DNA of 45,263 bases from a virus. Under the pieces are notes generated by a model that was given only the letters and a program-made list of their open reading frames with translations, was not told the DNA's origin and did not search any database. How positions within the stretch are numbered: the first letter of the stretch is position 1; each line of letters begins with the position of its first letter. The DNA is taken from positions 1 to 45,263 of IMG/VR virus record IMGVR_UViG_3300030061_001237. One strand, given 5' to 3'. This document shows positions 16,371-42,679 of the stretch, piece by piece. Both the position numbers and the translations under genes were made by a program.

Positions 16371-17941
16371 TGATTTTAAAAAGACCTTCTTTTAGACGTG
16401 GTGGTGGCGCAGGTATTGGTGCTTTAATGCCAAGAAAAAAATTGCAGTTTGGTACACCAGGATCAGGATATCAATTTTTAGAACCTGGTTTACAAAAAGA
16501 ACTTAGACTTGCTGAAGAAATAAAAAACAAAAATTTAAGAACTTCAAACTTAAGAGGACCTTTCGGAAATTTTATGAGGGGAGCCGTTTCTTATGGTGCA
16601 CCTATAGTAGCTCAAACAGGATTAGCTTATCTTAATAGACCTAGAACATTAGAAGAAAAAAAAGTAATGCAACAAATTTCAGATGAAAATGCTCTTAGCG
16701 GAGAAGCAACAATGCCTAATATACTTAAAGAACAAGATGCAAGAAGATTAAAAGCTTCTAAAGTAGGCGATGAGATTAGCTTTGCAGACGCATTTTTCTT
16801 AGATCCTGAAACAAAAACATATCCTAAAATATTAGGTAGAAGCGAGGATAGAATAAAACGTGCACAAATAGAAAAACAAAAGAAAATAGATGAAGAACTA
16901 GATAAACCCTCAATGTCAGGGGATCCTACTCAGTTTACAGGTGAGGATGAACTTACTAATTTTGAAGCATTAAAAGCGGCTCAAGGACCTAGAGAACCTG
17001 AAATAGATATTACTGAAGAAAGTTCTATTACCTTAGATCCTAAAGAAGAGATTAAAAAAGAAGCAGAGTTTATAAAAGATCTATTAAAAAATGAAAGTCT
17101 TACAAGAGGAGAGAATGCTTTAATAATAGCAGAGGCTATTAAAGCAGGTGGTTCATTAAGTGATAAAATATCCAAAGCTGCAGATCTAGCTTTACCAGTT
17201 GTTAAGAGAAGAGATAAACAAGATAAAGCAATTACTTTAAAAGCTTATGAATTATATAAAAGAAAAGAAGCAGAGCAAGCTAAAAGAGGTGCTCCTACAG
17301 CTACTCAAAAAGATATAGAAGCCACTGCGGACGCGTTAATAAAACAGGGTGATAAAAGATCTAAAGCAGAAATTGTTGCTGACATTAGAATTAAAGCTGC
17401 TGGATTTGATAAAGAAGGTAAATCATTATTGGCTAAAGGTGGTGGTGAAGTTTTTGAAATTGCAGAGGACATTAGAAAACAAAGAGACAAATTAACAGTT
17501 GAGCAAGGTAAGAAAAAACCAAATCAAAAAGACATTACAAAAATAAACAAAAAGCTTGCAGAACTTCAAGCTAGGTTAAGAACAATAGCTACTGTACCAG
17601 GGTTTGATGATATATTTGTAGGTATTAGAGAAGAATATTTAGCGGATGGTGGTAGAGTAAATAGAGCAAACGGTTCACCAATGGAAGGAGAAACAATGGA
17701 GGTAGCAGAAACAATTGCTGATACACCAGGTGCTCCTACTCCTGAAAAACAAGTTCTTAAATTATCTTACGCTGAATTAAGAAATAAATTACCAAAAGAA
17801 ATAACAGATGATGTTGTTGAGCTATTAGCCAACAGCACGGAGGCATTACAAGACTTTGCTTACATTACAACGCAAGATGATGTAGGTAACTTCAATGTTA
17901 AATATGGAGTCAACTTAGTCATTCCTCCAGCAACCGCATAG
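16370..17941 (+). CDS. Internal virion protein, Lys/Glu-rich
   Basis: 523 aa. It has an Arg/Gly-rich start (KRPSFRRGGGAGIGALMPRKK), a hydrophobic stretch (AVSYGAPIVAQTGLAYL) and long charged helices from ~120 to 400 suggesting coiled coil. A LADGGRVNRANGSP motif near residue 424 matches those in the previous 666 aa protein. The last ~90 residues are acidic with TPEKQVLKLSYAELRNKLPK. It overlaps the previous gene and precedes the giant 1387 aa gene. Role inferred as an ejection component. No enzyme motif was found. Confidence 0.6.
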   Translation: MILKRPSFRRGGGAGIGALMPRKKLQFGTPGSGYQFLEPGLQKELRLAEEIKNKNLRTSNLRGPFGNFMRGAVSYGAPIVAQTGLAYLNRPRTLEEKKVMQQISDENALSGEATMPNILKEQDARRLKASKVGDEISFADAFFLDPETKTYPKILGRSEDRIKRAQIEKQKKIDEELDKPSMSGDPTQFTGEDELTNFEALKAAQGPREPEIDITEESSITLDPKEEIKKEAEFIKDLLKNESLTRGENALIIAEAIKAGGSLSDKISKAADLALPVVKRRDKQDKAITLKAYELYKRKEAEQAKRGAPTATQKDIEATADALIKQGDKRSKAEIVADIRIKAAGFDKEGKSLLAKGGGEVFEIAEDIRKQRDKLTVEQGKKKPNQKDITKINKKLAELQARLRTIATVPGFDDIFVGIREEYLADGGRVNRANGSPMEGETMEVAETIADTPGAPTPEKQVLKLSYAELRNKLPKEITDDVVELLANSTEALQDFAYITTQDDVGNFNVKYGVNLVIPPATA

Positions 17942-17948
17942 GAGAAAC

Positions 17949-22112
<4,164 letters not shown>

Positions 22113-39097: not shown

Positions 39098-39478
39098 ATG
39101 CATAAAAATGAAACAAAATTTTGGCATCAAATTAAAAATGCTGGATGGAAAATTTCGTTTACTCGTATTGAAAATAGCGCCTCTCATGGTACTCCAGACT
39201 TGTTATGTCAGAACGAAAACCATGTATTTTTTACCATTGAATTAAAGCTAAGTTTGGATAAGAAGATAAGGTTCAGTCCACATCAAATTTCGTACCATGT
39301 ACGACATCCTGAGAATACATTTATCTTGCTAAAGACCCTCGGTCCTTTAGCCATAAAACTTTATGAGGGGAAGGATATCCTTGAACTTGTGGCCAAGGGC
39401 CATGAACCGCTTGAGCCTGTCGCTTGCGGACTTGAGGCCTGTGGCTTGTGGCTCGAGCGCCTCGGTTCTTGCGCCTAG
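39098..39478 (+). CDS. Small PD-(D/E)XK nuclease, VRR-NUC/resolvase-like
   Basis: 126 aa. RIENSASHGTPDLLCQ then VFFTIELKLSL give the G-x-PD...E-x-K metal motif of the VRR-NUC/Holliday-junction-resolvase-like nucleases. The last ~30 residues (from VACGLEACGLWLE) are encoded by GC-rich DNA unlike the rest and may be a recent extension into an intergenic repeat. Its stop is followed within 40 bases by a terminator. Likely role in recombination or branch resolution. Confidence 0.75.
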   Translation: MHKNETKFWHQIKNAGWKISFTRIENSASHGTPDLLCQNENHVFFTIELKLSLDKKIRFSPHQISYHVRHPENTFILLKTLGPLAIKLYEGKDILELVAKGHEPLEPVACGLEACGLWLERLGSCA

Positions 39479-39500
39479 CGCTTGTGGGCGGGTCCCTCCC
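39478..39500. repeat. GC-rich repeat copy 1 (divergent)
   Basis: GCGCTTGTGGGCGGGTCCCTCCC, a diverged copy of the element found four more times at 40282, 40667, 42070 and 42657. Part of it also forms the terminator hairpin. Confidence 0.65.
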
Positions 39501-40225: not shown

Positions 40226-40254
40226 TATATAGGATATTAAAGGATCAATGTCAA
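40226..40254 (-). promoter_or_regulatory. Sigma70-like promoter with TAGGATATT spacer motif
   Basis: On the - strand: TTGACA (40254-40249), 17-base spacer containing TTTAATATCC, then TATATA (40231-40226). The predicted transcription start is about 40219, the first base of the ATG of the downstream - strand gene. The sequence almost repeats the promoter at 40611-40639. Confidence 0.75.
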
Positions 40255-40281: not shown

Positions 40282-40304
40282 GAGCTTGTGGGCGGGTCCC
40301 ACCC
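40282..40304. repeat. GC-rich hairpin repeat copy 2
   Basis: GAGCTTGTGGGCGGGTCCCACCC. GTGGG and CCCAC can pair. It is followed by ATTTTTTTTTTTT on the + strand, so could terminate + strand transcripts, although no + gene is upstream of it here. It lies about 28 bases upstream of the - strand promoter at 40226-40254. Confidence 0.75.
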
Positions 40305-40322: not shown

Positions 40323-40603
40323 TGGCGCTCTTCCCGTCCCGCTCGCATGTGGCTTTGGACAGTAATAGCGCCAGATCACTTGTTGCTGGGCCTAGTACAG
40401 GGCAAGTTCGGGTAGCGTTAGCATCCTCGTGTTATCCTGCTTTTGGTATATAATTTTTCAACCAACTTAACTTGACCTCAAATCCCCTTACGATACCAAC
40501 GCTATTAACGTTGTATGGCATTACCCCTATTTATTCGGGGGATCAGGGATCACTCAACTCTCTAGGATTTCTCCAGCCCATAGCTATTGGGGCGTAAGTG
40601 ATC
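40323..40603 (-). ncRNA. Candidate structured noncoding RNA
   Basis: A stretch without a plausible gene lies directly after a good - strand promoter (40611-40639) whose predicted start is about 40603. From there the RNA begins GATCACTT, which pairs over 8 bp with AAGTGATC at 40381-40374, closing a 230 nt domain. A second copy of AGTGATC at 40554-40548 gives an alternative 7 bp helix. Further helices: GGA-GAAA-TCC with a GNRA loop (40565-40574), GCCC/GGGC (40576-40579 with 40590-40593), CAACG/CGTTG (40497-40501 with 40509-40513, extended by ATA/TAT), ATCCCC/GGGGAT (40482-40487 with 40538-40543), TTGGT/ACCAA (40443-40447 with 40461-40465), and 3' stem TGGCGCT/AGCGCCA (40323-40329 with 40367-40373). 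It is more GC-rich than its surroundings. Function unknown. Confidence 0.65.
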
Positions 40604-40610
40604 AGAGTTA

Positions 40611-40639
40611 TATATAGGATATTACAGGACCAATGTCAA
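40611..40639 (-). promoter_or_regulatory. Sigma70-like promoter for the ncRNA candidate
   Basis: TTGACA (40639-40634), 17-base spacer with GTAATATCC, TATATA (40616-40611). It closely matches the promoter at 40226-40254 and contains the shared TAGGATATT motif. The predicted start falls at the first base of the closing stem of the RNA candidate. Confidence 0.75.
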
Positions 40640-40666
40640 TAGTTAAAAAATTTTTTTCCGAGGGAA

Positions 40667-40689
40667 GAGCTTGTGGGCGGGACCCACCC
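40667..40689. repeat. GC-rich hairpin repeat copy 3
   Basis: GAGCTTGTGGGCGGGACCCACCC, preceded by CCGAGGGAA as in copy 4. It sits between the - strand promoter at 40611-40639 and the + strand promoter at 40715-40743, so it is about 25-30 bases from both. Confidence 0.75.
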
Positions 40690-40714
40690 AAGAAAAAAAA
40701 GAAAAAATTAATGC

Positions 40715-40743
40715 TTGACAGCTATACTAGAATATCCTATAAA
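40715..40743 (+). promoter_or_regulatory. Strong sigma70-like promoter
   Basis: TTGACA (40715-40720), 17-base spacer GCTATACTAGAATATCC, TATAAA (40738-40743). The spacer carries TAGAATATCCTA, one base from the palindrome TAGGATATCCTA. The gene starts at 40772 behind AAGGAGG. Confidence 0.8.
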
Positions 40744-40771
40744 TTATATTAATAACAACAAAGGAGGAAAA

Positions 40772-41689: not shown

Positions 41690-41720
41690 TTGACAATATA
41701 TTATTTTCCTATAGTGTCAA
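41690..41720. promoter_or_regulatory. Overlapping divergent promoter/dyad
   Basis: TTGACA (41690-41695) with TATAGT at 41710-41715 on the + strand, and TTGACA (41720-41715) with TATATT (41700-41695) on the - strand. Both have an unusual spacing of 14. The sequence is an imperfect inverted repeat TTGACA-MTATA...TATAK-TGTCAA, so it may also be an operator for a dimeric regulator. Confidence 0.6.
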
Positions 41721-42006: not shown

Positions 42007-42124
42007 CCCAAAGTGAACAAGCCGTGGAAGTAGCGTGAGCTGTTCATTTTGGGTCAAGAACCGAGGGAAGAGCATGTGGGCGGGACCCACCCGGGGGGGA
42101 AAAAAGAAAAACCCAAAATGAACA
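42007..42124 (+). promoter_or_regulatory. Mutually exclusive hairpins (possible RNA switch)
   Basis: CCCAAAGTGAACA (42007-42019) can pair with TGTTCATTTTGGG (42041-42053) in a 13 bp helix. The same TGTTCATTTTGGG can pair perfectly with CCCAAAATGAACA (42112-42124), enclosing the GC-rich repeat. The two helices exclude each other, as in attenuators or riboswitches. It lies downstream of the 41742 gene and upstream of 42276. Confidence 0.6.
42070..42092. repeat. GC-rich hairpin repeat copy 4
   Basis: GAGCATGTGGGCGGGACCCACCC, preceded by CCGAGGGAA as in copy 3 and followed by GGGGGGG. Confidence 0.75.
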
Positions 42125-42275: not shown

Positions 42276-42602
42276 ATGACAAAAGCAAAATACAACGTTC
42301 ACGTTTGGGACAATGACGCTGACAATACTGAAACAGTATTCGAGGCGCCAGCTAAACCAACGTTGGAACAGTTATATAAACTAATCGGATGTAGTACTGT
42401 GGAACGTGTATCGGGCTACGATAAGTCTGTATCAAATAGAACGTTTGATATATGGATCGATGAAGAGGGTAAGTTTAAAAGCCCTGTTAAAAATCTACGT
42501 GCAACTAATGCATGGTTTAGATGGATGCATAGAACAGGACATGTAAATATTCCTGGCGACTTCATCACTGGCAAAGCAGTTTGCTATAAAAAAATAGCCT
42601 AG
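42276..42602 (+). CDS. Small early protein
   Basis: 108 aa from ATG at 42276 behind AAAGGAGGATG; an in-frame ATG at 42210 has no SD. MTKAKYNVHVWDNDADNTET then LYKLIGCSTVERVSGYDKSV, FDIWIDEEGKF and AWFRWMHRTGHVNIPGDFIT. The pattern FDIWIDEEGK...WFR resembles DUF3846, a small phage/bacterial family of unknown function (GDxxI..). Assigned only tentatively. Confidence 0.6.
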   Translation: MTKAKYNVHVWDNDADNTETVFEAPAKPTLEQLYKLIGCSTVERVSGYDKSVSNRTFDIWIDEEGKFKSPVKNLRATNAWFRWMHRTGHVNIPGDFITGKAVCYKKIA

Positions 42603-42626
42603 GATATTCTAGGATAAGTCAATAGA

Positions 42627-42652
42627 CTAGGCGACCAAAATGGGTCGCCTAG
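42627..42652 (+). repeat. Strong hairpin after the 42276 gene
   Basis: CTAGGCGACC and GGTCGCCTAG form a perfect 10 bp stem with loop AAAATG. No T-run follows. It may stop exonucleases or be processed, or form a site in DNA. A promoter-like motif with TAGGATATT at 42601-42610 lies just before it. Confidence 0.7.
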
Positions 42653-42656
42653 AGAA

Positions 42657-42679
42657 GAGCATGTGGGCGGGACCCACCC
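42657..42679. repeat. GC-rich hairpin repeat copy 5
   Basis: GAGCATGTGGGCGGGACCCACCC. Its GGGACCC can also pair with GGGGTCCC at about 42754-42761, which could fold the leader before terL. Confidence 0.75.

Follow-up and report, generated by a model that had tools for sequence, protein, structure and literature searches.

What is encoded by the intergenic region directly upstream of a GP88-family gene in the genome of a marine phage? The window, i.e., the whole stretch of 45,263 nt that was analyzed, is part of a phage record with a length of 58,565 bases, and the terminase encoded in this record shares 68% identity with the terminase of Pelagibacter phage HTVC027P. In an initial annotation, a structured noncoding RNA driven by a minus-strand promoter of its own had been proposed and no gene had been seen there, and a check of the open reading frames of the window did not yield any convincing ORF over the region either. 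The analysis points to a noncoding RNA of about 280 nt with four domains in the order B-C-A-D, which would be transcribed from the minus strand from about 40603 to 40324. Very probably it is a genuine structured member of a class of mosaic RNAs of marine phages with a relationship to the pelagiphages of the HTVC023P type, and this class has representatives in no fewer than 100 phage sequences from the ocean. That it is a structured noncoding RNA at all, as had been annotated, is well supported, because its domains covary, recur in other phages, and belong to a class that tolerates G.U pairs in a strand-specific manner.

The minus-strand promoter of the initial annotation was recovered by sequence inspection as a promoter-like site at 40611–40639, comprising TTGACA (40634–40639), a spacer of 17 nt, and TATATA (40611–40616), from which transcription is predicted to start near 40604–40607. 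A consensus promoter scan did not list this site, because TATATA breaks the rule of the scan for the last base. Together with an upstream A/T tract and the hairpin GGGTGGGWCCCGCCC the site is present a second time before GP88, with 86% identity, and comparison of the repeats and their coordinates placed the -35 box of this duplicated promoter immediately upstream of GP88 (40249–40254, minus strand). At the 3′-end of the RNA no intrinsic terminator was found in the window. An exact pattern search for the hairpin revealed that the window contains five copies, each on the minus strand and most of them in front of a promoter (39480–39500, 40284–40304, 40669–40689, 42072–42092, and 42659–42679), while none was expected. 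The copy at 40669–40689, GGGTGGGTCCCGCCCACAAGC, is an intergenic repeat upstream of the promoter of the RNA, and the copy at 40284–40304 lies between the RNA and the promoter of GP88. The conserved T.G pairing of the repeated hairpin suggests that it works as minus-strand RNA. The hairpin pattern was also present in 61 of 80 loci that were fetched via their terminase. Another recurrent element concerns the promoters of this phage group, in which a TTGAC box is accompanied by one or two TATCCTA repeats (in the window at or near 40611–40750, 41690–41720, and 42600–42640), and this combination is possibly a phage-specific promoter or operator motif.

Comparison with close relatives revealed that the region between the repeats differs. 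Three of them (L002–L004) have a single hairpin-promoter unit before GP88 and are devoid of the RNA, two others (L005 and L006) have another, shorter structured leader in the slot before GP88, and in L010 the same slot holds another noncoding cassette, which is about 400 nt long. The absence or replacement of the RNA between the repeats indicates that it is an exchangeable cassette. Short structured leaders with other modules are situated directly before GP88 at L005:4870–5005 and at L010:5075–5176; L010 carries its leader in addition to a standalone cassette. On further contigs of marine phages, the noncoding cassettes between hairpins turned out to be patchworks of recurring RNA domains. Many of them have their own promoter and terminator in one orientation, and chains of up to five domains without any ORF were found.

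The folding energy of the minus strand of the window RNA was lower than that of shuffled sequences (z -2.2; two of 100 shuffles folded as well), while the plus strand did not fold better than shuffles (z -0.5). Such a moderately low energy of a single sequence would also be compatible with chance folding of unconstrained intergenic DNA. Domain B (40548–40603, minus strand) is composed of a 9-bp outer helix, a hairpin with the 8-nt palindromic loop AUAGCUAU, and a GNRA hairpin (GGA-GAAA-UCC). Six distinct members were found on different contigs, in which the outer helix of 9–10 bp and the GNRA hairpin covary and the 8-nt loop is palindromic. The GNRA loop that had been noticed in the initial annotation is conserved in all six, on a covarying 3-bp stem. 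The outer helix, GAUCACUU/GAGUGAUC, is local, with a distance of about 40 nt between its strands; it is perfect in five of the six members, and the sixth has a mismatch only at the outermost pair. An 8-bp helix had been proposed to close a domain of 230 nt. This helix, GATCACTT/AAGTGATC, does exist in the minimum free energy structure of the single sequence, but it did not hold as a closing helix, as the relatives keep the local helix instead. The two helices compete for GAUCACUU, and since the long-range one is favored by 5.7 kcal/mol in the energy calculation, they may be real alternatives.

Domain C (40474–40551, minus strand) was delineated by sequence inspection and has a bridge-type helix, GAUCCCUGAUCCCC/GGGGAUUUGAGGUC, with the U.U mismatch typical for the class and a C.A mismatch. 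It shares only this outer helix with the class, no relatives of its inner part were found, and it is the weakest supported of the four domains; its GAUC at 40548–40551 is common to domain B. Domain A (40389–40477, minus strand) is predicted to consist of P1, a P2/P4 pseudoknot (AAGU/ACUU and CAGG/CCUG), P3 with the conserved loop UGAAAAAUUAUAU, and a P5 hairpin with a UAAC loop. It was detected on 17 contigs, i.e., the window and 16 further ones, with 12 distinct sequences. When the structure was projected onto these 12 sequences, 95.8% of the cells were paired, 41 cells had double changes compared with 14.4 in shuffles, and the covariation score was 0.386 compared with 0.126. This covariation stems from P1 and P3; P2 is invariant and P4 is mostly invariant, so that covariation neither supports nor refutes the pseudoknot. 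The loop of P5 alternates between UAAC, UCAC, and GAAA, three loops that adopt one GNRA-like fold. Pairing of TAGCGTT with AACGCTA had been put forward as a pseudoknot or switch, but AACGCUA belongs to the P5 hairpin, in relatives the loop of this hairpin reads UCAC or GAAA, and the pairing is not conserved. The putative P2/P4 pseudoknot and an alternative pairing throughout the class fit better, the latter involving GAUC strands that neighboring domains share.

Domain D (40324–40372, minus strand) has a GGCGCU/AGCGCC helix, an internal loop (AUUA/GAAG), and an inner helix (CUGUCC/GGGACGG). It has 27 members, a number that does not include two further pattern matches resembling coding sequence, and the pair beside the internal loop covaries in all 27; the inner loop CCAAAGCCACATGCGAGCGGG is identical in the window and in L294. 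Taken together, the covariation in relatives that had been named as a check of the annotation was present in domains A, B, and D and in the bridge helix, and the putative transcript contains three recurring, covarying domains (B, A, and D), two being the minimum for a member of the mosaic class. These three domains are found again on further contigs of marine phages, in varied orders and in unrelated contexts, with compensatory base changes, and the domain patterns were absent or almost absent from shuffled windows. The covariation refutes chance folding, which is thus extremely improbable.

The portable domains are joined by a bridge helix, GAUCCCU...CUGGGAUC, of which 203 distinct forms were found in the loci. 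The helix extends over 9.0 consecutive pairs on average, compared with 4.5 after reshuffling of the arms. The internal non-Watson-Crick pairs of the 203 distinct helices comprise 71 G.U pairs versus only two A.C pairs, showing that selection has acted on the RNA of this strand and not on a DNA hairpin. This strand asymmetry led to the rejection of an alternative reading, namely that the repeats are mobile or recombination elements at the DNA level (hairpins like REP/BIME or attC) that are non-functional as RNA. Inverted repeats, the repeated flanking hairpin, and the gain and loss of cassettes between repeats of 80 bp are in line with it, but in addition to the asymmetry the GNRA and UMAC loops are conserved, and promoters and terminators have one orientation. 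We regard it as very unlikely.

The bridge pattern was detected in at least 120 viral stretches. Among 84,980 bacterial and archaeal genomes it had a single match, which lies in what looks like a coding sequence of a Bacteroidetes MAG and was taken to be a chance match, and a bacterial origin was rejected. Because the domains were recognized with simple patterns, the counts given are minimum values, and near-duplicates are present among the loci. The loci that were fetched with module patterns are biased, and only the fetches via the terminase, the small protein described below, and GP88 are independent; of the 80 loci fetched via the terminase, 22 had a recognized module. A relationship with the IMES RNAs had been suggested in the initial annotation together with an Rfam search as a check, but neither the window nor 32 related loci matched any family of Rfam 15 at the gathering score, and relaxed scans yielded only sub-threshold, chance-like matches. 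A blastn search with the region against 50,697 phage records gave no match. No description of the mosaic class was found in the literature that was searched, which did not extend to preprints, and unpublished or subscription accounts may exist. Shuffling of domains is normal for proteins and hardly known for noncoding RNAs, and here the RNAs on at least a hundred contigs of marine phages are built from one common set of domains.

Which function might such an RNA have? The GP88 gene (PF17338, E-value 1.7e-50) directly downstream of it extends from 40219, the probable ATG start according to the alignment of starts, to 39521 on the minus strand, and it is the neighbor with which the RNA class is syntenic. 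When loci were fetched with the GP88-family protein alone, a module was present within 1 kb upstream in 64 of the 71 loci that had enough upstream sequence, and downstream in none; several of the seven remaining loci visibly carry a module that escapes the patterns. The GP88 protein of the window is only about 20% identical to the fetched proteins, and the gene order is the same. A second neighbor, which has no match in the record of the window, is a family of small helical proteins of 31–60 amino acids with the motif EE[IV]LRLVK and no known Pfam domain. With a profile that had been built from proteins found beside modules, 80 loci were fetched, and 57 of them have a module within 800 nt, almost always upstream of the protein.

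The strong synteny upstream of GP88 and the small protein also fits the main rival explanation, according to which the domains would act in cis, as leader or 3′-UTR elements, and control these genes, e.g., as a riboswitch, an autoregulatory protein binding site, or a translational switch. In five contigs (L207, L212, L216, L219, and L220) domain A is apparently situated exactly at the 5′-end of the mRNA of the small protein, between the promoter and the ribosome-binding site; the RNA of the window, devoid of a clear terminator, could be the leader of the GP88 mRNA; and the GAUC strands common to neighboring domains permit alternative pairing. However, in the window a separate promoter for GP88 is situated downstream of the RNA, many cassettes terminate before the next promoter, and domain A occurs not only in 5′-leaders but also in a 3′-UTR context after a GP88-family gene (L150) and in standalone mosaics (e.g., L209, L210, L215, and L221). 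In addition, the RNA varies much more strongly than its neighbor, as the coding gene aligned over 97% in a comparison of GP88 loci while the upstream 900 nt aligned over only 21%, in pieces. We regard control in cis as rather unlikely. The location of domain A at extreme 5′-ends of mRNAs or in 3′-UTRs, as well as the pseudoknot-like module at the start of several cassettes, would also be expected if the domains were structured caps shielding phage transcripts against the ribonucleases of the host. For such a protection neither chains of five domains without an ORF nor hypervariable palindromic loops would be necessary, and a role in stability is considerably less probable than control in cis. 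The opening module of many cassettes (L096, L107, L153, L201, and L215) resembles an H-type pseudoknot with a stem, a loop CTCATTTG..., and a downstream A-rich strand, and by eye, not by a formal count, the strands of the loop pairing change together between contigs.

A self-association of the RNA is suggested by its loops. One more domain, K (AAGCCCU-[8 nt]-GGUAAACAAUUGCC), has variable segments that are perfect palindromes in all eight distinct cases, compared with a mean of 0.42 and a maximum of three in the null distribution. In L005 and L006, relatives of the phage of the window, the leaders are otherwise nearly identical, and the K segment exhibits a symmetric change, GGACGTCC versus GGAATTCC. 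The apical segments of domain D contain a 6-nt palindrome in 16 of 20 distinct cases, compared with 2.6 expected, although the D loop of the window itself has none, and the distinct loops of domain B are palindromic in three of three cases, including that of the window. The enrichment is confined to certain domains: it was not significant for the hairpin loops of the whole class, and in a scan of sites with conserved flanks and a variable core palindromes were about as frequent as expected by chance, except for K, which clearly stood out. The simplest reading of loops that are variable and yet self-complementary is homodimerization via kissing loops in these domains.

Based on these results the following mechanism is proposed. 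The RNA would be transcribed during infection from its own promoter, fold domain by domain, and associate with itself via self-complementary apical loops, in the window probably via the 8-nt loop of domain B. It could then serve in trans as a scaffold or as a ribonucleoprotein, with GP88 as its partner and, in other phages of the class, the small helical protein as a further one. The fast turnover of loops and domains would be as expected for an RNA that recognizes its own kind or escapes a host factor. The domain structure, its portability and reshuffling, the selection on one strand, the self-complementarity of loops, and the position upstream of GP88 are shown by sequence comparison, while the cooperation with GP88 is putative. 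The initial annotation had named a regulator, a packaging RNA, and an anti-host RNA as options for the function, and the comparison adds the GP88 locus as a new lead. The mechanism alone, i.e., an RNA that acts in trans, associates with itself, and cooperates with GP88 and, in many cases, the small protein, is proposed tentatively, at somewhat less than an even chance. Together with the assignment to the mosaic class it is part of the best overall explanation, which we judge to be about evenly balanced between right and wrong. More speculative is a combinatorial RNA system, in which an interchangeable pool of domains would form homo-oligomers via hypervariable, always self-complementary loops as "self" barcodes, and each lineage would have, together with GP88, a private RNA assembly that is aimed at the host or at competing phages, or that escapes their notice.

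Several known systems share features with the mosaic RNA. GOLLD and ROOL are large structured ornate RNAs of phages and prophages with unknown function, which form homo-oligomers that are held together partly by kissing loops (PMC12286853). The mosaic RNAs are also large structured phage RNAs, and the sequence hints at oligomerization are solely the palindromic loops of B, D, and K. In contrast to GOLLD and ROOL, they are shorter and consist of chains of exchangeable domains without a match in Rfam, and their self-complementary loops are hypervariable. GOLLD and ROOL reside in tRNA islands, while the mosaic RNA is syntenic with GP88 and not a single tRNA gene was found within the 45-kb window. 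In HEARO/IsrB-type pairs a structured RNA is likewise encoded beside its protein partner (PMC12286853); the partnership of the mosaic RNA with the adjoining GP88 is putative, and GP88 is not a relative of IsrB according to Pfam. IMES, Ocean-V (PMC2864571), and other RNAs from marine metagenomes are also marine and structured and have no known function. They differ in that they do not match the mosaic RNA at gathering or relaxed thresholds. To our knowledge, a mosaic organization has not been described for any of them. The stem-loops for dimer initiation of retroviruses have short apical loops with self-complementary sequences, which differ from lineage to lineage and yet stay palindromic. The loops of the mosaic RNAs behave alike, but they are found in several types of domains, with many palindromes, and in DNA phages, and a role in packaging is not implied here.

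The proposal can be tested at once in a cultured system, because RNA-seq data (PRJNA1253180) exist for HTVC027P on Pelagibacter HTCC1062. In this phage the RNA, gp34 (the EE[IV]LRLVK small protein; L205:4949–5089, minus strand, MN698241), and gp33 (GP88, Pfam E-value 2.5e-28) follow each other on one strand. The RNA is predicted for the minus strand of MN698241 at 17,681–18,221, between gp35 and gp34. In the published transcriptome gp33 and gp34 form their own temporal cluster with high expression 6–9 h after infection, and a noncoding RNA is not mentioned (PMC12753301). The proposed role would give the uncharacterized GP88 family a partner, and it would add a new class of phage RNAs with a possible code for self-recognition in viruses whose hosts include some of the most abundant bacteria of the ocean. 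Structure prediction with AlphaFold2 did not yield a usable model for the GP88 protein of the window (14 sequences, pLDDT 37), while a GP88-like relative was modeled with a pLDDT of 80 (47 sequences). A Foldseek search with the latter model gave no match at an E-value of 0.001 or below, only weak partial matches to TIM-barrel and radical-SAM-like folds. Downstream of GP88, at 39380–39480 (minus strand), repeats of the type CAAGCNNCAAGC were observed, which are also present near mosaic RNA loci in L207, L218, and L440.
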